Below, one piece after another: positions 11,846-44,622 of a stretch of DNA of 44,622 bases. The stretch comes from Gammaproteobacteria bacterium 13_2_20CM_66_19 (GTDB lineage: Bacteria > Pseudomonadota > Gammaproteobacteria > Steroidobacterales > Steroidobacteraceae). The notes beneath the pieces were generated by a model. That model had not been told where the DNA came from. It made no database searches and saw nothing but the letters and a program-made list of their open reading frames with translations. The stretch covers positions 1 through 44,622 of the forward strand of contig MNCZ01000133.1 in assembly GCA_001914695.1 (NCBI GenBank). Direction: 5' to 3'. The number at the start of each line of letters is the position of its first letter. Positions within the stretch are counted from its first letter, which is position 1. Position numbers and translations under genes: made by a program.

Positions 11846-12748
11846 TCAGGCCTCTTCGCAGGCGTAGCCGATCGTCTGCGGCGAGCCCCGCTCGGGCAAG
11901 CGCCCGAGGCCGATCATGCCCTGGCCCTTGATCTGCAGGCTGTCGCGGCGCACGAACGATTCCTCGCCGTCGGCGCTCTGCACGAAGGTTCCATTGGTGC
12001 TCTGATCGATCAACACGAACTTGTTGCGGCTGATCTCGATGCGGGCGTGCAGGCGCGAGATGAGGTTGCCCTTCACCACCATGTCGTTGTCCTCGGCCCG
12101 GCCGATGGTGACGCTCGAATGGCGCTCGTCGACCAGCAGCTCGCGATCCTGCCACTGCAGGCGCAGGCGCAGGTGATGTCCGGAGCGCGGCTCGGTCGCG
12201 ATCCCCGGCACCATGCTGGTCACGTCCTCGGTCTGCCACAGCACCTCGTAGAGGGCGACCTCGCTTCCCTGGCCCTTGAGTGTCGCGACGTCGATCTGGC
12301 GGCAGGAGGCGCGCCACTCGGGCGACAGCTTCTCGACGGTAGCGGCCGTAGTCACGATCTGTCCGGCCTTGGCCTGACTGGTCATGCGGTTGGCGGTATG
12401 CACGGCGGCGCCGAACACGTCGCGGTTCTCGAGCATCACCGGACCGTAATGGCAGCCGATGCGGATGGCGACCGGCTGGCCGTCGACATTGAGCTGCGCG
12501 TGCGTCGAGATCTGCTGCTGCATCTGTGCGGCGGCGTTCAGCGCCGCGTCGGCGGTCGGAAAGGTGGCCATCACCTCGTCGCCCATGGTCTTGATGACCG
12601 TGCCCTGGCGCTGCTCGGTGGCGCCGCGCATCACGTCGATGCAGATCGCCACCATGTCGCGGGCCCGCAGATCGCCCATGGTGTCGTACAGCCGGGTCGA
12701 TCCGACGACGTCGGCGAACAGTATCGCGAGTTCGATGTCCTTGCCCAT
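11846..12748 (-). CDS. Class III adenylate/guanylate cyclase-like protein with C-terminal FHA domain
   Basis: Soluble 300-residue protein. The cyclase homology domain (about residues 1-175) has both metal aspartates, in AILFADVVGSTRL and in TMGDEVMATF. The segment that normally reads V-N-x-A-x-R is V-H-T-A-N-R here, so the transition-state Asn is replaced by His while the Arg stays. The FHA domain (about 205-290) has the phosphothreonine-binding set IGRAEDND, ISRLHARIEI and STNGTFV. This suggests a link from Ser/Thr phosphorylation to nucleotide signalling, or a cyclase used as a scaffold. ATG 12748 is preferred; a TATAAT box lies 14 bases upstream. Cyclase activity is uncertain. Confidence 0.85.
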   Translation of the reverse strand: MGKDIELAILFADVVGSTRLYDTMGDLRARDMVAICIDVMRGATEQRQGTVIKTMGDEVMATFPTADAALNAAAQMQQQISTHAQLNVDGQPVAIRIGCHYGPVMLENRDVFGAAVHTANRMTSQAKAGQIVTTAATVEKLSPEWRASCRQIDVATLKGQGSEVALYEVLWQTEDVTSMVPGIATEPRSGHHLRLRLQWQDRELLVDERHSSVTIGRAEDNDMVVKGNLISRLHARIEISRNKFVLIDQSTNGTFVQSADGEESFVRRDSLQIKGQGMIGLGRLPERGSPQTIGYACEEA

Positions 12749-12761
12749 GAGTTGCCTCGCG

Positions 12762-12767
12762 ATTATA
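12762..12767 (-). promoter_or_regulatory. Consensus -10 box for the cyclase-FHA gene
   Basis: A perfect TATAAT on the minus strand (12767-12762) lies 14 bases upstream of the ATG at 12748, which would give a leader of only about seven bases. The expected -35 position (GTAGCC) is poor, so this may depend on an activator. The perfect match in GC-rich DNA is why it is listed. Confidence 0.4.
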
Positions 12768-12798
12768 CGCGAGCGCTCTGGGGAGGCTACCGACGGGC

Positions 12799-13848
12799 TT
12801 AAACGCGCGGCGCCGCGGGAATCGCCTGTCGCAGCAGCTCCACCCCGGCCCCAAGCACCCGCGCGCCCTCGCTCAACGTGCGTCGGAAGTCGCGGGCTCC
12901 CGGCTCCCCGCTGTAGAGGCCGAGCATGTGGCGCGTGATCGCGGCGAGGGGCTCGCCGCGGGCGAGCTCGCGCGCGACATAGCGTTCCATGCGGGCGAGG
13001 TGCGCTTCGCGCGTGGGCATCTCGCCGGCCCCGGAATTGAGCGCGCAATGCAACTCCGCGAGCAGATAGGGGCGGTGATAAGCCTCGCGTCCGAGCATGA
13101 CGCCGTCGCACCAGGCGAGCGCGTCGAGCACCATTCCCGGCAGGCGCAGGCCTCCGTTGACCACGACCGGCAGAGCCGGAAAGTCGACCTTGAGGCGCCG
13201 CACGACGTCGAAGCGCAGCGGCGGGACCTCGCGGTTTTCCTTCGGCGACAGCTCGCCCAACACCGCCTTGCGGGCATGCACGACCGCGGCCTGACAGCCG
13301 GCATCGCGCACGCTCCCGACGAACCCCCACAAGCTCTCGGCGTCGCACTCGCTGAAGCCCGCGACCGCTTCCTGCAGGTCGCCGGCCCCCGCGCTGACCA
13401 CGCCGATGCGCATCTTCACCGTCACCGGCACGCGCACCGCGGCAACCATCGCGGCCACGCATTCGGCCACCAGCGCGGGCTCGTGCATCAGGCAGGCGCC
13501 GAAGGCGCCGCTCGCCACGCGCTCGCTCGGACAGCCGCAGTTGAGGTTGATCTCGTCGTAGCCCGCCTCCTCGCCGGCGCGCGCCGCCGCCGCCAGCTCG
13601 CGCGGCTCGCTGCCGCCGAGTTGCAGCGCGACCGGATGCTCCTCGGGATCGAAGGCCAGCAGCCGCGCACGATCGCCGTGCAGGATCGCCGCCGCCGTGA
13701 CCATCTCGGTGTAGAGCAGCACGTCCGGCGAGAAACCGCGCAGGAAATAGCGGCAGTGCCGGTCGGTCCAGTCCATCATGGGAGCCACGGCGATGCGGCG
13801 GTCTAACGTCGACGCGCCGAAGGAGTTACTACTCGGACGTGTCGTCAT
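12799..13848 (-). CDS. dusA: tRNA-dihydrouridine(20/20a) synthase DusA
   Basis: FMN enzyme that reduces U20/U20a in the tRNA D-loop using NADPH. The 349-residue product has the TIM-barrel start IAVAPMMDWTDRHCRYFLR, the catalytic cysteine in NLNCGCPSERV, the FMN-phosphate segments VTVKMRIG, VVVNGGLRLPG and GVMLGREAYHRPYLL, and HARKAVLGELSPKENR. The first 18 residues (from ATG 13848) lie upstream of the att-like repeat and have no family match. They appear to have been supplied by the inserted element. The start overlaps the 3' end of the upstream nucleotidyltransferase gene by 20 bases. Confidence 0.95.
   Translation of the reverse strand: MTTRPSSNSFGASTLDRRIAVAPMMDWTDRHCRYFLRGFSPDVLLYTEMVTAAAILHGDRARLLAFDPEEHPVALQLGGSEPRELAAAARAGEEAGYDEINLNCGCPSERVASGAFGACLMHEPALVAECVAAMVAAVRVPVTVKMRIGVVSAGAGDLQEAVAGFSECDAESLWGFVGSVRDAGCQAAVVHARKAVLGELSPKENREVPPLRFDVVRRLKVDFPALPVVVNGGLRLPGMVLDALAWCDGVMLGREAYHRPYLLAELHCALNSGAGEMPTREAHLARMERYVARELARGEPLAAITRHMLGLYSGEPGARDFRRTLSEGARVLGAGVELLRQAIPAAPRV
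13762..13788. repeat. dusA-proximal att-like direct repeat
   Basis: This stretch inside dusA encodes the APMMDWTDR region. It matches 15161-15187 in the same orientation: the first 16 bases are identical and 24 of 27 bases match overall. The 5' end of dusA is a known insertion target for a family of genomic islands and prophages, so this is read as one attachment-site copy. Confidence 0.65.
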
Positions 13849-14578
13849 CCAGTCCCTTGCCGGAGTCAGGCTCTAACTCGCTGCGCTTCGACGAATCACG
13901 CGCCCAAGTTGGATTGGAAGTCGGAAATGTCACGCCAACCTGTCGTCGCAGCTTCAACCACTCCGCCCGTCCACGTGCCTTGATAGCCTCCAGGTCCTCA
14001 ACCGCGCTAGCCGTCGGCGGTTGCTTCTCAGCTGCAGGCTCCTCGATACCTCGCTCGGCGTGAAAGTCGCGGGTGATCTGGTTGCGGATTCGACTGCGCA
14101 GGTGCTCCTCAATTTGGGTCTGGTCCAGCAACGTAAGTAATCGCTCCTCGGAAACGATCCCACGGCGAGCGAGTTCTCGGGTAAAGACAAGATCCTTGTC
14201 ACGGAAAGCGACGTACTTTGCGATTGCTAGGTCATGGGGCTCCAAACACAGTCCCTTGACCCCTTCTGTGTTCCCCGGAGGCAGATGCACCAATCGCCCC
14301 TTCCAGCCTTTGGGAAGTGTCGCGGTCTTCTCGTCAACCGGGTCAGCGTAGTAACCAAAAGTCTCGTGAAATTGCGAGTAAACGCCGATCGCATTCAGCC
14401 ACTCGGTTCGCTTGGGGCTCTTTGCAGCGAGCAAGTCCACCTCCGCAGACTTGACGATGTCGTCCGCAAGATCCGGGTACTTCCCGTGAAGAGCCTGGCT
14501 GCCGATTATTATGAATTGCTTCTCGCCAGTTATTCGGCCGGCAGCCCGCAGCACGTGATCAAGCTCCCGCTTCTTCAT
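13829..14578 (-). CDS. DUF6036-type nucleotidyltransferase (possible toxin)
   Basis: A 249-residue protein with a minimal nucleotidyltransferase fold: FIIIGSQALHGKYPDL supplies the GS motif and SAEVDLLAA the acidic metal motif (ExD). It is followed by KGLCLEPHDLAIAKYVAF, a helix common to AbiEii/DUF6036-like proteins. The C-terminal 70 residues are charged and low-complexity. Its ATG at 14578 overlaps the AbrB-like gene by 20 bases, the arrangement of a toxin-antitoxin pair; the toxin role is inference. GC content is visibly lower than in the flanking housekeeping genes, and it lies between the two dusA repeats, both signs of transfer. Its 3' end overlaps the dusA start. Confidence 0.72.
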   Translation of the reverse strand: MKKRELDHVLRAAGRITGEKQFIIIGSQALHGKYPDLADDIVKSAEVDLLAAKSPKRTEWLNAIGVYSQFHETFGYYADPVDEKTATLPKGWKGRLVHLPPGNTEGVKGLCLEPHDLAIAKYVAFRDKDLVFTRELARRGIVSEERLLTLLDQTQIEEHLRSRIRNQITRDFHAERGIEEPAAEKQPPTASAVEDLEAIKARGRAEWLKLRRQVGVTFPTSNPTWARDSSKRSELEPDSGKGLDDDTSE

Positions 14579-33467: not shown

Positions 33468-37673
<4,206 letters not shown>

Positions 37674-37965: not shown

Positions 37966-38994
37966 ATGCTTGCCGCACGCAATGATCTCGGACTCAGAAT
38001 CTTCTCGACCTGCCCGCCCTCGGCCCGCGCCGCGCGCGACGAGTATCTGCGCCAGGTGCAGGAGATTGCGTCCTGGAGTGAGGATGCCGGCTGCGAAGGG
38101 ATCCTGGTCTACACCGACAACGCTCAGGTGGACCCATGGCTCGTCGCGCAGGCGATCATTCGCGCGACGCGCACGCTCTGCCCGCTGGTCGCGATCCAAC
38201 CCGCCTACATGCATCCCTACAGCGTGGCGAAGATGGTCACCTCGCTGGCATTCCTCCATGGCCGCCGCGTGTACCTCAACATGGTGGCGGGCGGCTTCAC
38301 GAACGACCTCGCGGCGCTCAACGACCATACGCCCCACGATGAGCGTTACAGTCGGCTGGGCGAGTACACGGCGATCATCCAGGGGCTGCTGGCGTCCGCT
38401 GAGCCCTTCACTTTCAGCGGCAGCTACTACCAGGTCCACAACCTGCGGCTGACGCCGCCGCTGCCGCCCGAGCTGCAGCCCGGCGTCCTGATGTCCGGCT
38501 CGTCGGAAGCGGGCATGCAGGCGGCACGGCGCCTCGGCGCGACACCGATCGAATATCCGAAGCCGGTCGCGGAGTATGCGGCGGCGCGCCGGGGCGGCCC
38601 ATCGCGCGGACTGCGCATCGGCCTGATCGCGCGCGGCACCGAGGCCGAGGCGTGGCGCGATGCGCACGAACGCTTCCCGCCGGATCGCAAGGGCCAGCTC
38701 ACCCACGAGCTTGCCATGAAGACGTCGGACTCCTCGTGGCACCGCCAGCTCTCGAAGCTCGGCGCCCGAGCCCAGGGGGAGGCGGAGCAAAATCCCTACT
38801 GGCTGGTGCCGTTCGAGAACTACAAGACGTTCTGCCCGTATCTCGTCGGCAGTTACGCGGCCGTCGCCCAGGCGGTCGCCGGCTACGTCAACGCCGGCTA
38901 CCGCACCTTCGTGCTCGACGTCCCGGCGAGCCCCGCGGAGCTCTCGCACATCGGCAGGGTGTTCGGGCTCGCCGTCGATCGGGTGGCCGCATGA
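37966..38994 (+). CDS. Luciferase-like (LLM-class) flavin-dependent monooxygenase
   Basis: A 342-residue TIM-barrel flavoenzyme of the SsuD/luciferase group. LGLRIFSTCPPSA forms the first strand, EGILVYTDNAQVDPWLVAQA the next, then VAIQPAYMHPYSVAKMVTSL and the family-typical VYLNMVAGGFTNDLAALND with DERYSRLGEYTAIIQGLL. It should use reduced FMN and O2. The context (next gene an adenylation enzyme, overlapping by ATGA, then a carrier protein) suggests it oxidises a carrier-bound acyl or aminoacyl group rather than a sulfonate; that is inference. ATG 37966 follows GGGAGA. The 292 bases upstream are shared with the divergent kinase operon and I see no convincing promoter in them. Confidence 0.87.
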   Translation: MLAARNDLGLRIFSTCPPSARAARDEYLRQVQEIASWSEDAGCEGILVYTDNAQVDPWLVAQAIIRATRTLCPLVAIQPAYMHPYSVAKMVTSLAFLHGRRVYLNMVAGGFTNDLAALNDHTPHDERYSRLGEYTAIIQGLLASAEPFTFSGSYYQVHNLRLTPPLPPELQPGVLMSGSSEAGMQAARRLGATPIEYPKPVAEYAAARRGGPSRGLRIGLIARGTEAEAWRDAHERFPPDRKGQLTHELAMKTSDSSWHRQLSKLGARAQGEAEQNPYWLVPFENYKTFCPYLVGSYAAVAQAVAGYVNAGYRTFVLDVPASPAELSHIGRVFGLAVDRVAA

Positions 38995-40643
38995 GCGCTC
39001 ACCTGCTGCAGCAGGCGATCACGGAGCGGGCGCAGGCGCGCCCGGAAGCGGCGGCCGTGCTCGCCGAGGACGCCGCCCCGCTCACCTACGGCGAGCTGGA
39101 TGCCGGCAGCAACCGTCTGGCACACATGCTGCGCGAGCTCGGCTGCCGGCGTGGGGATCGCGTGGTGCTGCTGATGCCGAAGTCCCCGCAGGCGATCATG
39201 AGCCTCATCGGCGTGCTGAAGGCCGACGCCGCCTACGTGCCCCTCGATACGGCGGGACCCGCGCCGCGGCTGGCGCGAATGCTCGAGGTGTGCGGCTGTC
39301 ACAGCATCCTGGCCGCGGGGTCCGCCGCGCCGATCCTGCGTGAGGCGCTCGCGCGCGCCACGCTCGCGCAGCAGCCGCTCCTCGGCTGGCTGGACGCCGC
39401 GACGCCCTGGAACGGCGACCCGCCCCCGGCATTCACGGCGGCGGACCTCGACGGCCTTCCCGCCACGCCCGTTGAATCGCTCAACAGTGATACGGATCTC
39501 GCGCACATTCTCTTCACTTCGGGCTCTACGGGAGTTCCCAAGGGCGTGATGGTCTCGCACCGCAGCGTCCTGCGCTTTCTCGAGTGGGCGTGGAAGTACT
39601 TCGGCATCTCCCAGTCGGACCGCGCATCGCAGCACTCCCCGCTGCATTTCGATCTGTCGACCTTCGACATCTTCAGCACGCTCGGCGCGGGCGCGGAGCT
39701 GCACCTGACGCCGAGCGGAGTGAACCTCCTGCCGCACAAGATGGGGCAGTACATCCGCAAGGCACGCCTCACGCAGTGGTTCTCGGTGCCCTCGGTCCTC
39801 AACCTCATGGCGAAGCTCGACGTCGTGCGCCCCGGAGACTTCCCGGATCTGCGCCGGGTGATGTGGTGCGGCGAGGTGCTGCCGACGCCGACGCTGATCC
39901 ACTGGATGCGTCGCCTGCCGCACGCGCGCTTCACCAATCTCTACGGTCCCACCGAGGCAACCATCGCGAGCAGCTACTACACGGTGCCGCGCTGTCCGGC
40001 GCACGAGCGCGCCCCGATCCCGATCGGCACCGCCTGCGACGGAGAGGAGCTCATGATTCTCGACGACGAGATGCGTCCGGTGCGGGATGGCGAGATCGGC
40101 AATCTCTACATCGGCGGCGTGGGCCTGAGTCCCGGCTACTGGAACGATCCGGAGAAGACCCGCAGCGTGTTCCTGCCCCGCCCCGGGGGAGCGGGTCTCG
40201 ACGAGCGTGTCTACCGCACCGGCGATCTCGGGCGGCGCGGCGCGGACGGGCTGTTGTATTTCGCCGGCCGGACCGACACCCAGATCAAGAGCCGCGGCTA
40301 CCGCATCGAGCTCGGCGAGATCGAGAGCGCGCTGAATGCGCTGCCGGGCCTGCGCGAGTGCGCCGTGGTCGCCGTGCGGACCGAGGGCTTCGAGGGCTGG
40401 ATGATCTGCTGCGCCTATGTCACGGCGCGCGGCGCCGACATCCCGCCGTCGGGCCTGCGGCAGAGCCTGGCGAGCGCGGTCCCCGCCTACATGCTGCCGG
40501 CCCGCTGGATGCACTGCGACGCCCTGCCGAGAAACGCCAACGGCAAGGCGGACCGCCCGGAGCTGCAGCGGCGGTTCCTCACGGCCGAGGCCCAGTCGAG
40601 CGCGAGTACGCCGCGCCTCGCATCGGGCCCGGTGCTCACTTAA
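38991..40643 (+). CDS. Stand-alone amino-acid-type adenylation enzyme
   Basis: A 550-residue ANL-family enzyme that resembles an NRPS A domain without condensation or carrier domains. The core motifs are present: LTYGELDAGSNRLA (A1/A2), FTSGSTGVPKG (A3, residues 175-185), HFDLSTFDIF (A4, with D221 at the position that binds a substrate amino group in A domains), NLYGPTEATI (A5), YRTGDLGRR (A7), KSRGYRIELGEIE (A8) and NANGKADRP with the catalytic Lys K519 (A10). It likely activates an amino acid for the adjacent carrier protein. Specificity cannot be called. The ATG overlaps the monooxygenase TGA; the carrier gene starts 13 bases after the stop. Confidence 0.9.
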   Translation: MSAHLLQQAITERAQARPEAAAVLAEDAAPLTYGELDAGSNRLAHMLRELGCRRGDRVVLLMPKSPQAIMSLIGVLKADAAYVPLDTAGPAPRLARMLEVCGCHSILAAGSAAPILREALARATLAQQPLLGWLDAATPWNGDPPPAFTAADLDGLPATPVESLNSDTDLAHILFTSGSTGVPKGVMVSHRSVLRFLEWAWKYFGISQSDRASQHSPLHFDLSTFDIFSTLGAGAELHLTPSGVNLLPHKMGQYIRKARLTQWFSVPSVLNLMAKLDVVRPGDFPDLRRVMWCGEVLPTPTLIHWMRRLPHARFTNLYGPTEATIASSYYTVPRCPAHERAPIPIGTACDGEELMILDDEMRPVRDGEIGNLYIGGVGLSPGYWNDPEKTRSVFLPRPGGAGLDERVYRTGDLGRRGADGLLYFAGRTDTQIKSRGYRIELGEIESALNALPGLRECAVVAVRTEGFEGWMICCAYVTARGADIPPSGLRQSLASAVPAYMLPARWMHCDALPRNANGKADRPELQRRFLTAEAQSSASTPRLASGPVLT

Positions 40644-40656
40644 GGCGCGGGGCCGC

Positions 40657-41013
40657 ATGTCCGACCGCCGCGTCGCACTCGAGCGCCTGGGTGCCCTGTT
40701 TCTGCAGCACTTTCACGTGGAGGTGCCCTCCCCGGATACCGACCTGCTCGAGACCGGCATGCTCGACTCGCTGCAGCTCGTCGACCTGCTGCTGCTCATC
40801 GAGGAGGAGTTCGGCCAGCGCATTTCGCTCCAGGCGATCGAGCTCGATGATCTGCGCACGCTCGCGCGCCTCGCGGAGCTGGTCGGCACCTCTGCGGCGT
40901 CCACCCCGGATGCCCGCGCGGTATCGACCAGCAGCGAGGTCCGGCCTCGTCGGCCCGAGCCCGTGCGCGGCGCCGCCGTTGGAGGCCGGCGCGAGCTGAA
41001 TCACCGTGGTTAG
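40657..41013 (+). CDS. Acyl/peptidyl carrier protein
   Basis: A 118-residue protein. Residues 1-80 form a carrier four-helix bundle with the phosphopantetheine serine S38 in LLETGMLDSLQLVDLLLLIE, followed by EEEFGQRISLQAIELDDL. The remaining 40 residues are Arg/Pro/Ala-rich, longer than a normal carrier protein, and probably disordered. It presumably carries the residue activated by the preceding enzyme. The last eight bases overlap the next gene. No phosphopantetheinyl transferase is in the window. Confidence 0.9.
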   Translation: MSDRRVALERLGALFLQHFHVEVPSPDTDLLETGMLDSLQLVDLLLLIEEEFGQRISLQAIELDDLRTLARLAELVGTSAASTPDARAVSTSSEVRPRRPEPVRGAAVGGRRELNHRG

Positions 41014-42094
41014 GATCCGGCCGTTCACGGAGCAGGACGTGCCGGCGGTCGTCGCGCTGTTCGGGCAGGTCTATCCCGAGCACCGCTGGCCCACGCGTGC
41101 GGCGTGCGAGCAGTACTTCCGCGAGATCTTCTTCGGGAATCCTTGGCGACATCTCGACCTGCCCTCGTGGGTCGCCGATCAGCGCGGCGACATCGCGGGC
41201 TTTGCGGGAGTCGTGCCACGCCAGATGACGTTCGGCACACGGCCGCTGAAGGTCGCGGTCGGCTGTCAGTTCATCGTCCACCCAAGCGCGCGCCACAGCC
41301 TGATCGCGCTGCAGCTGGCGAAAGCCCTGGTCTCGGGCGCGCAGGATCTGTTCATCACCGACGGCTCGAACGACCAGGTGCGGCGGATGTGGCTCGGGAT
41401 CGGTGGCGCGGTGCCCATCCTGCCGAACCTCGACTGGACGCGCTTGCTGCGGCCCGCGCGCTACGTGCTCGCGCTCCTCGACAAGGCGAGGCATCGGCGG
41501 CCCCTGCTGCGCGCGGCGCTCGCGCCGTGCGTGCTGGTCGACGCCGTGGCGGCAAGGCTCCGCCCGAACCGCTTCGATCGCAGCGATGACGGACTCTCGG
41601 ACCGGCCGCTGGGCGCCCGTGAAATGCTCGCCCACATGACCGGGATCGCGGGTCGCAACGGGGCGCTGCGCCCCCTGTACGATGAGCGATCGCTCGCTTG
41701 GCTGCTGGAGCAGGCCGCGCACAAGGTCCGCCACGGTCAGCTGCGGGCGCGAGCGGTGTTCGAGGGCGAGAAGCTGCTCGGATGGTTCATGTATTACGCC
41801 CGCGTCGGCGAGGTCAACGAGGTCCTGCAGCTCACCGCGCGCGGCGATTCCTTCGACCGCGTGCTGCAGCGGTTGCTGGTCGACGCCTGGCGGCAGGGCG
41901 CCACGGCGCTGCGGGGGCGCCTCGATCCGCATCACGTCCAGGAGTACTCCGACCGGCACTGCTGGTTCCGCCGTGAAGGCGCCTGGACGCTGGTGCATTC
42001 GCGCCATGACGACGTCGTGTCCGCGATCGAGCGCGGCGCCGCCGAGTTCACCCGTCTGGACGGTGAGTGGTGGCTGCGGTTCCTCGGGGGCTGA
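41006..42094 (+). CDS. GNAT-like acyltransferase candidate
   Basis: A 362-residue protein. The N-terminal half looks like a GNAT fold: VRIRPFTEQDVPAVVALFGQ, then WVADQRGDIAGFAGVVPRQM, and VGCQFIVHPSARHSLIALQL, where the acyl-CoA pyrophosphate loop would lie. The C-terminal half (LLGWFMYYARVGEVNEVLQL and YSDRHCWFRREGAWTLVH) resembles a second, degenerate GNAT-like unit. In this setting it may take the acyl group from the carrier protein rather than from CoA (inference). GTG 41006 overlaps the carrier gene. Directly after the stop is a row of hairpins (42093-42147). Confidence 0.7.
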   Translation: MVRIRPFTEQDVPAVVALFGQVYPEHRWPTRAACEQYFREIFFGNPWRHLDLPSWVADQRGDIAGFAGVVPRQMTFGTRPLKVAVGCQFIVHPSARHSLIALQLAKALVSGAQDLFITDGSNDQVRRMWLGIGGAVPILPNLDWTRLLRPARYVLALLDKARHRRPLLRAALAPCVLVDAVAARLRPNRFDRSDDGLSDRPLGAREMLAHMTGIAGRNGALRPLYDERSLAWLLEQAAHKVRHGQLRARAVFEGEKLLGWFMYYARVGEVNEVLQLTARGDSFDRVLQRLLVDAWRQGATALRGRLDPHHVQEYSDRHCWFRREGAWTLVHSRHDDVVSAIERGAAEFTRLDGEWWLRFLGG

Positions 42095-42147
42095 GCCGCA
42101 AGGCTCAGCTGAGCCGAAAAGCTCAGTTGGGCCGAAAGGCTCAAACT
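42093..42147 (+). repeat. Three tandem 18-base hairpin units after the GNAT-like gene
   Basis: Units at 42093-42110, 42111-42128 and 42129-42146 share the core GRGCCGNAARGCTCA. The first is a perfect hairpin (GAGCC, GCAA loop, GGCTC); the other two fold similarly with cGAAAa and GAAA centres, so GNRA-type loops recur. The row starts inside the stop codon. No T-tract follows, so it is not a classic terminator. It could stabilise the upstream mRNA, separate expression of the two halves of the cluster, or be a simple slippage product. Confidence 0.6.
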
Positions 42148-42207
42148 GAGCGCTGCCGAGATTCGATCCGTGTAATGCACGGGCGCTAGGGTCTGGGGCA
42201 ACGTACC

Positions 42208-43392
42208 GTGACCACTCTTACGACGGCATTGCATCAACCATGGGATTCGACAGGGGCCGGAAGCGGCTCGGTCGTCGTGGTGCGCGACCTCCGCGGGCTC
42301 ACCGGCTTCATCCCCGACTGGGAAGAGCTGGCCGCGCAGGCGCTCGAGCCCAACGTCTTCTACGAGCACTGGATGCTGCTGCCGGCGCTCGAGGCGTTTG
42401 GCGCCGGCCTCGACATTGGGGTCGTGCTGGTATTGGCCGGCGGCGACCTCGCGGGTCTGTTCCCGGTGCAATTCACTCCGAGCTTCAGAAACCTGAACGT
42501 CAGCGCGGTGAGTGTCTGGCGGCACCTGCACTGCTATCTCGGCACGCCGCTGATCCGCACCGATCGTGCCGGCGACTGCATCACGACGCTCCTCGAGTGG
42601 CTGCGCCGCAGCCGCCAGGCGCGGTTCCTCGAGCTGCCGTGGATCTCGGGCGATGGTCGCTTCAGGGAGTTGCTGCTCGAGCGGTGCAACGAGCTGGGCC
42701 TGACGAGCTGGAGGACCGACAGCCACAAGCGAGGGCTGTGGCGGCAGGCGACCCACGCGACCGGCGGCGCGCACTCGGCCGTCTCGGGCGAGTTGCGGCG
42801 GCAGCTGCGCCGCAAGGAGCGGCGCCTCGCCGAGCACGGCCGGGTCGAGCATGTCGTCTTGAGCCCCGGCGATGACGTCGCGCGCTGGATCGAGGAGTTC
42901 CTGCGCCTCGAGGCGGGCGGCTGGAAGGGCGCCTCCGGCACCGCGCTCGCCTGCTCGGATTCCGGCCGCCGCTACTTCGCGGACATCGCGACTGCCGCAT
43001 TCCGCCGCGGCCGCCTGCTGATGGTCGGCCTTGATTTCGACGGCGAGCCGATTGCGCGGCGCTGCGCGTTCCGCGCGGGGGCGGGCTCCTTCGCCTTCAA
43101 GACGGCGCACGACGAGTGCTTTGCGAGTCACTCTCCGGGCGCGATCCTGGAGATCGACAACCTGACGCAGCTCGATGGCCTGGAGGGGTTGTGGTGGATG
43201 GACTCCTGCACCACCCCCGACAACACGCTCCTCAACCGCATCTGCAACGACTCGAGGACGATCGAGAGCCTCGCGATCGCCAGCGGACCGCTCGGAGAGC
43301 TCGTGATCTCGGGCCTCCGGCTGCTGCGCTGGACGAACCGGCGGCTCATCAAGCGAGTTTCAGACCCCACCTCAACCCATGTTGCTTCGTGA
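42208..43392 (+). CDS. FemAB/BioF2-like GNAT acyltransferase
   Basis: A 394-residue protein with the double-GNAT layout of FemAB-like transferases: LRRQLRRKERRLAEHGRVEH followed by FLRLEAGGWKGASGTALA is the central family signature, then LLMVGLDFDGEPIARRCAFR and FKTAHDECFASHSPGAILEI. Related proteins use aminoacyl-tRNA (Fem) or act in exopolysaccharide clusters. With a carrier protein and adenylation enzyme nearby, transfer of a carrier-bound aminoacyl group is plausible (inference). GTG 42208 is the only start before the conserved region. It follows the hairpin row by 61 bases, and the next gene follows four bases after its stop. Confidence 0.82.
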   Translation: MTTLTTALHQPWDSTGAGSGSVVVVRDLRGLTGFIPDWEELAAQALEPNVFYEHWMLLPALEAFGAGLDIGVVLVLAGGDLAGLFPVQFTPSFRNLNVSAVSVWRHLHCYLGTPLIRTDRAGDCITTLLEWLRRSRQARFLELPWISGDGRFRELLLERCNELGLTSWRTDSHKRGLWRQATHATGGAHSAVSGELRRQLRRKERRLAEHGRVEHVVLSPGDDVARWIEEFLRLEAGGWKGASGTALACSDSGRRYFADIATAAFRRGRLLMVGLDFDGEPIARRCAFRAGAGSFAFKTAHDECFASHSPGAILEIDNLTQLDGLEGLWWMDSCTTPDNTLLNRICNDSRTIESLAIASGPLGELVISGLRLLRWTNRRLIKRVSDPTSTHVAS

Positions 43393-43396
43393 GACC

Positions 43397-44311
43397 ATGG
43401 ACACCCCCCGCAGTTGTCTCAAAATCGATGCGGATACCTTCCGCAGCCATTTCAACCTCCGACCGTTCCTGTTCTCCCACAACCTGTCGCGGCACCCGCT
43501 GGTCCAGCTGCCGCGCCTCGTCAAGTTGGCGAAGACACTGGACCGCAGCTATGTCGACTACAACGCCGGGCGGATCCCGGTGAGCCTGCCGAACTGGCAG
43601 GACGCGCCGCACACCGGTCTCACGGCCGAGGAGACGATCCACAATACGGCGGAGATCTGCTCGTGGATGGAGCTCAAGCGCGCCGAGCATTGTCCCGACT
43701 TCAAGAGGCTGCTGGACGCGTGCCTCGACGAGATCGCTCCGCTCTCCGAGCCGATCGAACCGGGGATGTGCGAGCGCGAGGCGGCCGTCTTCGTATCGTC
43801 GCCCGGCTCCGTGACGCCCTACCACATGGATCACGAGATCAACTTCCTCCTGCAGCTGCGCGGCGCCCAGAGCGTGAGCGTATTCAACGCTGACGACGCC
43901 GCGGTGCTGTCGGAAGAGGACCTCGAGGAGTACTTCTCCGGCCCGGCGATCCACCGCAACATGCGCTTTGCGGAAGCTTACCAGGAGCGCGCCACGGTGT
44001 TCGAGCTGTGCGAGGGACAGGGCCTGCACATCCCGACCACCGCGCCGCACTGGGTAAAGCACGGGGACACGGTGTCGATCTCCTTCAGCGCGTCCTTCAA
44101 GACGCGCGCGTCGCTCGCGCGAGGCGACGTGTACCGGATGAACGCGGTGCTGCGCCAGCTCGGCGTCGAGCCCCTTCCCTGGAACAGCTCGCCGGCGCGC
44201 GATCGGATCAAGCACCACGCGTATCGCGCACTGCGCCGGGCTCACTGGCTGCCCCGGCCGCCGGTGGCGGCGGGCGAGGCGGACGCGAGCCGCGCTCACG
44301 GCAACGCCTGA
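43397..44311 (+). CDS. JmjC/cupin-like Fe(II)/2-oxoglutarate oxygenase candidate
   Basis: A 304-residue protein with a double-stranded beta-helix core. The iron-binding triad is H143 and D145 in VTPYHMDHEINF and H218 in TTAPHWVKHG. FLLQLRGAQSVSVFNADDA between them and TVSISFSASFKTR after them are the strands typical of cupin-like/JmjC hydroxylases. It may hydroxylate the cluster's product or a protein partner. ATG 43397 is four bases after the upstream stop with GTGAG before it; an ATG at 43379 in the same frame overlaps the FemAB-like gene and is the alternative. No signal peptide. Confidence 0.82.
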   Translation: MDTPRSCLKIDADTFRSHFNLRPFLFSHNLSRHPLVQLPRLVKLAKTLDRSYVDYNAGRIPVSLPNWQDAPHTGLTAEETIHNTAEICSWMELKRAEHCPDFKRLLDACLDEIAPLSEPIEPGMCEREAAVFVSSPGSVTPYHMDHEINFLLQLRGAQSVSVFNADDAAVLSEEDLEEYFSGPAIHRNMRFAEAYQERATVFELCEGQGLHIPTTAPHWVKHGDTVSISFSASFKTRASLARGDVYRMNAVLRQLGVEPLPWNSSPARDRIKHHAYRALRRAHWLPRPPVAAGEADASRAHGNA

Positions 44312-44338
44312 GCGCCCCCGGCACGACCCTTCACAAGA

Positions 44339-44622
44339 ATGAAGATCTGCTTCCTAGGTCTCGACAATCTTCCGGTTCTCTCGCCGGAGCACCGCGAGCA
44401 CTACGTCGGCGGCGAGTCGGTGCAGCAGACGCTGCTCGCGCGCGCCCTCACCGCGCGCGGCCACGAAGTCAGCATGGTCACGGCGGACTACGGTCAGCCG
44501 GATGGCGCGGTCTGGGAGGGCATCCGCGTTCACAAGGCGTATCGCCCCGAATCTGGACTTCCGGTACTGCGCTTCGTGCACCCGCGGTGGAGCGGCCTGT
44601 GGTCGGCGCTCGCGCGCGCCGA
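44339..44622 (+). CDS. GT4 glycosyltransferase (N-terminal part)
   Basis: The first 94 codons of a gene that runs off the right edge. The product opens with MKICFLGLDNLPVL, and GGESVQQTLLARALTARGHEV is the N-terminal nucleotide-sugar transferase signature of GT4 enzymes (glycine-rich turn plus helix). It starts 27 bases after the oxygenase stop in the same direction and so is probably part of the same operon, which ties the cluster to a glycan or glycolipid. The donor-binding half is outside the window. Confidence 0.82.
   Translation, partial: MKICFLGLDNLPVLSPEHREHYVGGESVQQTLLARALTARGHEVSMVTADYGQPDGAVWEGIRVHKAYRPESGLPVLRFVHPRWSGLWSALARA

Follow-up and report, generated by a model that had tools for sequence, protein, structure and literature searches.

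The 44,622-nucleotide stretch of DNA analysed here (the window) is a complete contig (G000:C78) of a draft metagenome-assembled genome (MAG; 82.6% complete) from Gammaproteobacteria bacterium 13_2_20CM_66_19, and its right end carries seven open reading frames (ORFs) on the + strand, at 37966-44622. They encode a luciferase-like flavin monooxygenase (LLM), a stand-alone amino-acid adenylation domain (A domain), a free carrier protein, a putative acyltransferase of the GCN5-related N-acetyltransferase (GNAT) type, a FemAB-like acyltransferase, a JmjC-like oxygenase and a glycosyltransferase of family GT4. We found that the first three genes recur as a core in other genomes, and we consider it slightly more probable than the opposite that the module makes an oxidised aminoacyl thioester on its dedicated carrier and passes it to an amine or hydroxyl group of an acceptor, most likely on a surface polysaccharide or exopolysaccharide sugar, with a lipid-linked or nucleotide-sugar precursor of such a polysaccharide as an alternative acceptor. 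We propose an oxidation of the tethered amino acid because the LLM and A-domain genes are paired at every locus collected, a carrier accompanies most of them and the substrate code of the A domain is near-invariant.

We searched genomes with a profile built from four LLMs, counting the query genomes among the matches. The profile matched 22/339 genomes in the acidobacterial class of MAG G661 (G661 included), 2/296 in the window's order (window included) and 1/82 in the order of MAG G660, namely G660 itself; further genomes gave no match, neither 339 from the window's class (at E 1e-30) nor 81 from G660's order (at E 1e-40). This gave 26 LLM loci (22 new loci, the window, one locus of G660 and two of G661), the 22 that come on top of the four query rows having been picked by their LLM only, without regard to neighbouring genes. 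The LLM relatives at the 25 other loci are 54-69% identical, with the exception of L163 (33%).

In all 26 loci (26/26), the LLM gene is followed on its strand, one or two genes on, by a gene with an A domain, although at L163, where the LLM itself is weak, the A-domain match is weak as well and falls in a protein of the size of a nonribosomal peptide synthetase (NRPS). A 4-base overlap between the two genes was found in the window and in nine other loci. A carrier homologue was detected at 22/26 loci, the window counted, 11 of these 22 carriers being seeds of the carrier profile itself; three of the misses (L109, L147, L165) stop at contig ends and the fourth is L163. The carrier gene lies on the opposite strand in L146 and L149. 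Judging from these neighbourhoods, LLM, A domain and carrier are a recurring core in soil Acidobacteria, and, because neighbourhoods are conserved elsewhere, the seven genes of the window are not a chance assortment. The preliminary description, made from the window's sequence, had treated all seven as one cluster; the three-gene core bears this out in part, whereas the GNAT gene is present at a minority of the loci and FemAB-JmjC behaves as a separable pair.

The same conservation bears on whether the genes are unrelated neighbours or the product of a misassembled contig, an explanation that we regard as very improbable. The cluster was taken from a single draft MAG, where it lies at a contig end, and no LLM match was found in the 20 listed genomes of the window's genus; the explanation is contradicted by the conserved gene order, as the succession of histidine kinase, LLM and A domain is kept in G660 (Betaproteobacteria), and the cluster genes have a GC content at third codon positions (GC3) of 0.85-0.90, close to the 0.91 of the flanking kinase. 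The kinases flanking the LLM in the two genomes are 77% identical over 251 residues, and the LLM and A-domain fragment of G660 are 69% and 58% identical to those of the window. In the window, this kinase is a 1401-residue protein (33468-37673, - strand) with repeated HAMP-like stretches discernible by eye.

Larger parts of the set were recovered by a JmjC search of named genomes, in which two MAGs matched, G661 (Acidobacteria) and G660. In G661 we found relatives of all seven families, spread over three contigs, and the co-occurrence across genomes that the preliminary description had called for was thereby observed. One G661 locus holds FemAB, JmjC and family 2 glycosyltransferase (GT2) genes in a row, with an adjoining GNAT gene on the opposite strand. 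A second holds an LLM, an A domain (with one TGA break), a methyltransferase, a carrier and a FemAB-like gene, followed at some distance by GT4-type genes. In a third, an ATP-grasp-like gene lies upstream of the series LLM, A domain, carrier and hexapeptide acyltransferase. At L108 of G661 (12372-14498), a longer open frame has the LLM as its C-terminal portion and, by eye, a sugar-deacetylase-like N-terminal portion; this may be a fusion or an unbroken frame. G660 holds four of the seven families (LLM, A domain, FemAB, JmjC), with the FemAB-JmjC and LLM-A pairs on separate contigs.

The substrate pocket provides a further view of what the core may do. The A domain has the amine-binding aspartate noted in the preliminary description (alpha-amine Asp221), and its ten-residue pocket code, with positions mapped by hand on the GrsA scheme, reads DLFFMCLIAK. 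The pattern DL[FHL]F[LMIF]CL[IV]AK accounts for 22/22 complete codes, making the code near-invariant, and it is common to two A-domain clades; members of the clade without the window A domain share 31-35% identity with it. Against the A domains of plasmids (178 records), the window A domain had its best matches in Streptomyces; two were read, one beside KASIII, acyl carrier protein (ACP) and acyl-CoA dehydrogenase genes and the other in an unannotated record, both with the code DLFYLALVCK. In a midpoint-rooted tree, the window A clade sides with two Streptomyces A domains of this code. The LLM tree is poorly resolved, with 14/26 inner branches open. Because the window code presumably falls between proline (PltF-like) and D-alanine (DltA) codes, our guess is that the substrate is a small non-polar alpha-amino acid fitting an alanine- or proline-like pocket. 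The specificity reading suggested in the preliminary description has thus produced a code conserved among relatives, with the substrate itself still a guess.

The features of the cluster are collected in the table below. As had been described, the seven genes run in one direction and some overlap, by 4 bases (LLM/A domain) and 8 bases (carrier/GNAT); the A domain and carrier genes are separated by 13 bases and the GNAT and FemAB genes by 113. All seven ORFs are real and all are intact except that of the GT4 protein, which is fragmentary because the window ends with its contig at 44622. Pfam curated cut-offs were exceeded by Bac_luciferase, AMP-binding, PP-binding and Acetyltransf_6, while the GNAT, Cupin_8 and GT4 matches fell slightly below theirs. 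Within the GNAT-FemAB gap lies an array of three palindromic repeats whose RNA is strongly foldable (z -5.9), and which is possibly an attenuator or an mRNA-stability element.

Table. Coordinates of the cluster features in the window, with the matches that identify them.
Feature	Position	Strand	Match or remark
LLM (luciferase-like flavin monooxygenase), core gene 1	37966..38994	+	Pfam Bac_luciferase 115 bits
Stand-alone amino-acid adenylation domain, core gene 2	38991..40643	+	AMP-binding 269 bits; TIGR01733 395 vs cut-off 317
Free carrier protein, core gene 3	40657..41013	+	Pfam PP-binding 35.9 vs cut-off 20.8
Tandem-GNAT acyltransferase, proposed transferase	41006..42094	+	GTG start; Pfam 24.5 vs cut-off 25; predicted fold
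FemAB/CelD-like acyltransferase (Acetyltransf_6)	42208..43392	+	Pfam 61 vs cut-off 22
JmjC/Cupin_8-type Fe/2OG (2-oxoglutarate) oxygenase-like protein	43397..44311	+	Cupin_8 26.7 vs cut-off 27.4; predicted fold
GT4 glycosyltransferase, N-terminal part	44339..44622	+	Glyco_trans_4_4 28.1 vs cut-off 29.7, E 3e-6; contig-end fragment
Three 18-base tandem palindromic repeats	42090..42143	+	Between the GNAT and FemAB genes

Motifs and predicted folds add to these assignments. The carrier has Ser38 within ETGMLDSLQLVD. The GNAT-like protein was modelled by AlphaFold with a mean pLDDT of 73, and Foldseek matched the model to Eis2 and N-myristoyltransferase (E about 1e-11, TM-score about 0.5), supporting a tandem GNAT of Eis- or N-myristoyltransferase-like predicted fold. 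The JmjC-like protein was predicted with a mean pLDDT of 89 and matched YxbC, NO66 and FIH at E 1e-10 or better (TM-score about 0.5, root-mean-square deviation about 10), in support of a predicted JmjC barrel, and its Fe triad (H143/D145/H218) is invariant in 13 aligned rows. The earlier claim that every motif set is intact therefore stands for A-domain Asp221, carrier Ser38 and the JmjC Fe triad, but not for the truncated GT4 gene or for JmjC position 158, discussed below. The closest solved structure to the LLM is SsuD, the alkanesulfonate monooxygenase; however, a sulfonate role was rejected because both score and active-site residues fail, the LLM reaching 116.9 bits against the TIGR03565 cut-off of 518.2. 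In the alignment to 1m41, the SsuD active-site residues Cys54, His228, Arg297 and Tyr331 are replaced by Gln54, Gly219, Asn285 and Pro320, with only Arg226 kept (Arg217).

Around the core, the partner genes vary. We counted them by phmmer over the 26 loci, with queries taken mostly from the same loci, and found a carbamoyltransferase at 10/26, a GNAT of the window's type at 7/26 (six besides the window), an asparagine-synthase-like amidotransferase at 6/26, ATP-grasp-like and hexapeptide proteins at 5/26 each, and a methyltransferase and a formyltransferase at 4/26 each; one member of each family was checked by Pfam, the ATP-grasp match lying under its cut-off. Some partner genes are opposite in strand, for example in L146, L149 and L156. 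On this sequence comparison, transferases appear to be exchanged around a conserved core. At L160, a flavin reductase gene (11921-12400) is set between the carrier and GNAT genes, a placement that fits what is expected for a two-component flavin monooxygenase.

JmjC proved a poor sole marker of the module, as 20/250 genomes of the acidobacterial class matched in varied contexts, and the 20 acidobacterial JmjC regions that were fetched contained no LLM relative by BLAST. An A-domain ORF lies within about 5 kb of the JmjC relative in 9/20 of these loci (L068, L070-L073, L075-L077, L082), and at L067 and L068 other oxygenase-like genes and transporters were seen nearby by eye. Plasmids gave three JmjC matches, and the one read, from Paraburkholderia, lies near sulfatases. 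At L032 (9316-12239, in genome G546 of the window's family), the JmjC relative overlaps an A-domain ORF with the code DFWNIGMVHK, which is the threonine code, and a carrier domain was seen by eye. A FemAB gene adjoins the JmjC gene in L004, L005 and L016, and a GNAT homologue is also present in L005.

The setting of the core in several loci points to glycans. Genes found near it across loci include WcaJ, Wzx, Wzy-like, Wzz, GT2, GT4 and CapD-like types; L148 and L151-L153 can be recognised clearly as polysaccharide loci by their WcaJ, GT2, Wzy-like, GT4 and deacetylase genes, and three of them (L151-L153) also have Wzx. Two genes of L146, one for a Wzz-type chain-length protein and one for an ATPase close to the XrtA-associated family, match slightly below NCBIfam cut-offs, and L149 carries near-duplicates of them. 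In a hand count that admitted weak matches (the window's GT4 fragment, an ABC-2 exporter at L156, nucleotide-sugar genes at L150 and a far-end GT2 at L158), 17/22 loci of at least 10 kb held a glycan-related gene; the shorter loci (L109, L112, L147, L165) are in neither of the enrichment tests. A first test of enrichment (12/22 versus 5/30) was biased, its queries having been taken from the test loci, and was therefore replaced by a leave-one-group-out test, in which the window itself has a score of 0 and from which the near-duplicates L149, L151, L152, L153 and L159 and the NRPS-type locus L163 were dropped. With L016 (a 16-kb JmjC locus with a GT2 gene) left out of the controls, 8/16 de-duplicated loci had glycan genes, compared with 5/30 JmjC control loci (p 0.036).

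Several results weigh against the proposed route to a surface glycan, or against parts of it. The enrichment weakened to 8/16 versus 6/31 (p 0.045) when L016 was placed among the controls, and to 8/17 versus 6/31 (p 0.055) when L163 was restored as well, and no glycan gene was found among the genes scanned at L155, L159, L160, L163 and L166 (5/22). A flavin reductase was detected at 1/26 loci only, and a GNAT relative was looked for in G660 and not found. JmjC position 158, on the strand after the HxD motif, where lysine is the usual 2-oxoglutarate anchor, is Gln in the window and Lys in the 12 other aligned rows. Finally, in genome G170 the FemAB-JmjC pair is accompanied by a flippase gene and a GT2-like one, and the genome has neither an A-domain match at E 1e-40 nor an LLM match at E 1e-10; because the pair occurs there without such matches, FemAB-JmjC is, by gene content, a separable add-on and not part of the core. 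As the enrichment test is marginal (p 0.036-0.055), the link between the core and glycan genes is likely but falls short of proof.

That marginal result leaves room for a different product, namely a small diffusible compound (siderophore-, signal- or antibiotic-like) made by the same tethered oxidation, in which case the glycan genes would reflect a glycosylated metabolite or coincidence. We consider this unlikely, while giving it appreciable weight. Part of its support comes from plasmids, where 15 records had an LLM match and five loci (L089-L093, from Tritonibacter, Gemmobacter, Rhizobium and Streptomyces) were read, two of the remaining records coming from the same species as a read one and eight being weaker. 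The plasmid LLMs are 44-52% identical, AMP-binding or A-domain genes are in the cluster at 5/5 loci read, and the clusters, NRPS, halogenase or similar in kind, variously hold carriers, acyl-CoA dehydrogenases, tryptophan-7-halogenases, P450s and phosphopantetheinyl transferases. L163 likewise looks by eye like an NRPS or polyketide synthase locus, glycan genes are few or absent at the compact loci L158-L160, and formyl- and carbamoyltransferases are frequent in natural-product pathways. What speaks against a diffusible product is that, in L148 and L151-L153, WcaJ, GT2, Wzy-like, GT4 and deacetylase genes immediately precede the core on its strand; L151-L153 also have Wzx downstream of it. The clustering of the plasmid relatives with AMP-binding genes also counts in favour of the main reading, and by these sequence associations the LLM family seems to have a wider place in pathways that work on carrier proteins.

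Decoration of a surface polymer from a carrier has a precedent in Dlt D-alanylation, where a stand-alone A domain and a free carrier likewise feed the reaction. The window differs in its extra monooxygenase and in that DltB and DltD are not among the seven genes (no DltB-type membrane-bound O-acyltransferase was found by Pfam among the seven proteins, on a contig ending at 44622 and with no genome-wide search made), and Dlt membership was rejected on scores of 289 bits against the DltA cut-off of 560 for the A domain and 29 against the DltC cut-off of 52 for the carrier. A D-alanylation-like system, in which the LLM would act on a sugar or lipid partner and not on the carrier-bound amino acid, is in our estimate improbable. 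The A domain and carrier do score against DltA and DltC, under the cut-offs, and the pocket resembles that of DltA at several positions, but LLM and A domain stay adjacent even where the transferases differ, and related LLMs occur in other clusters with AMP-binding genes.

Other known systems share the logic of tethered oxidation. In the butirosin pathway (BtrI/J/K/O/V/G/H), loading is carried out by the ATP-grasp enzyme BtrJ. The window resembles this pathway, in which the 4-amino-2-hydroxybutyrate (AHBA) side chain arises from an ACP-borne amino acid by hydroxylation and is transferred to an aminosugar, in having both a free carrier and an LLM-superfamily monooxygenase. The window differs in loading by an A domain and in having a proposed transferase of GNAT fold in place of the papain-like BtrH, as well as in a setting that is often a glycan locus; neither ATP-grasp loading nor a BtrH-like transferase was among the Pfam matches of the seven window proteins. 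BtrO is described as an LLM-superfamily flavin monooxygenase (PMC2922099). The same source predicts a system linked to liposaccharide genes, comprising a seryl-tRNA synthetase (SerRS)-like amino acid:carrier ligase, an ACP and a redox enzyme, which would monooxygenate a tethered amino acid and couple it to an aminosugar of the cell surface (PMC2922099). That system, unlike the window, activates by a tRNA-synthetase paralogue and has a Rossmann-fold redox enzyme and another ligase.

The N-hydroxypyrrole pathways of chalkophomycin and hormaomycin (ChmG-J, hrmKLMN) also combine an A domain, an ACP and a flavin enzyme that oxidises a tethered amino acid, and the window A code resembles that of the Streptomyces A domain with an acyl-CoA dehydrogenase gene as neighbour. 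A thiotemplated pyrrole or N-hydroxypyrrole pathway would be expected to have an acyl-CoA dehydrogenase beside A domain and carrier; none is among the seven genes of this cut contig. ChmG N-oxygenates prolyl-ACP in chalkophomycin and is compared with acyl-CoA-dehydrogenase-type pyrrole-forming enzymes and not with LLMs (PMC10849742). Exosortase A (XrtA/PEP-CTERM) loci share AMP ligase, carrier, FemAB and amidotransferase types with the module, and some relatives adjoin XrtA-like genes (matches below cut-off), so that the likeness to exosortase-linked loci raised in the preliminary description holds to this extent; however, the A domain is not ligase_PEP_1 (TIGR03098, 254.7 bits against a cut-off of 592). 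The preliminary description saw no exosortase in the window, and none was found by PF09721 in the 82.6% complete window genome either (0/1; the control was positive in 1/14), and an exosortase locus was accordingly rejected for this genome. The overall logic is an old one, known from butirosin and Dlt, with parts that differ, and membership in each fails on the tested features.

For the window we therefore return to carrier-bound oxidation followed by transfer to a surface glycan. In the proposed scheme, the A domain would adenylate a small non-polar alpha-amino acid and, as is usual for the family, load it onto the holo-carrier; the LLM, using reduced flavin mononucleotide (FMNH2) from a reductase, would then oxidise the tethered aminoacyl group, for example by N- or C-hydroxylation; and the tandem-GNAT protein, the FemAB-like protein or both would move the acyl group from carrier to acceptor. 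In the window variant, the JmjC protein may hydroxylate the product further and the GT4 protein would extend the glycan, while elsewhere carbamoyl-, formyl- and methyltransferases or ATP-grasp-like ligases would replace the enzymes of these later steps. Gene content, conservation and predicted folds are what we observed, and from them we infer each chemical step and the acceptor; the comparative evidence agrees with the preliminary idea of an aminoacyl-carrier oxidised while tethered and then joined to a surface glycan, with oxidation, transfer and acceptor remaining at the level of proposal. No description of such a module was found in the openly licensed PubMed Central literature under the terms tried.

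The surface chemistry of these soil bacteria is little known. A broader reading, which we offer tentatively and at somewhat under an even chance, is that a mobile LLM-A-carrier core, recurrent in Acidobacteriota and rare in the sampled proteobacteria, makes one conserved oxidised amino acid, which swapped transferases use to decorate many surface polysaccharides. With the A code near-invariant, substrate identity becomes a single question across about twenty genomes; the LLM would be a case of carrier-bound amino acid oxidation outside assembly lines. If true, the module would connect natural-product chemistry on carrier proteins with the decoration of polysaccharides in soil bacteria.

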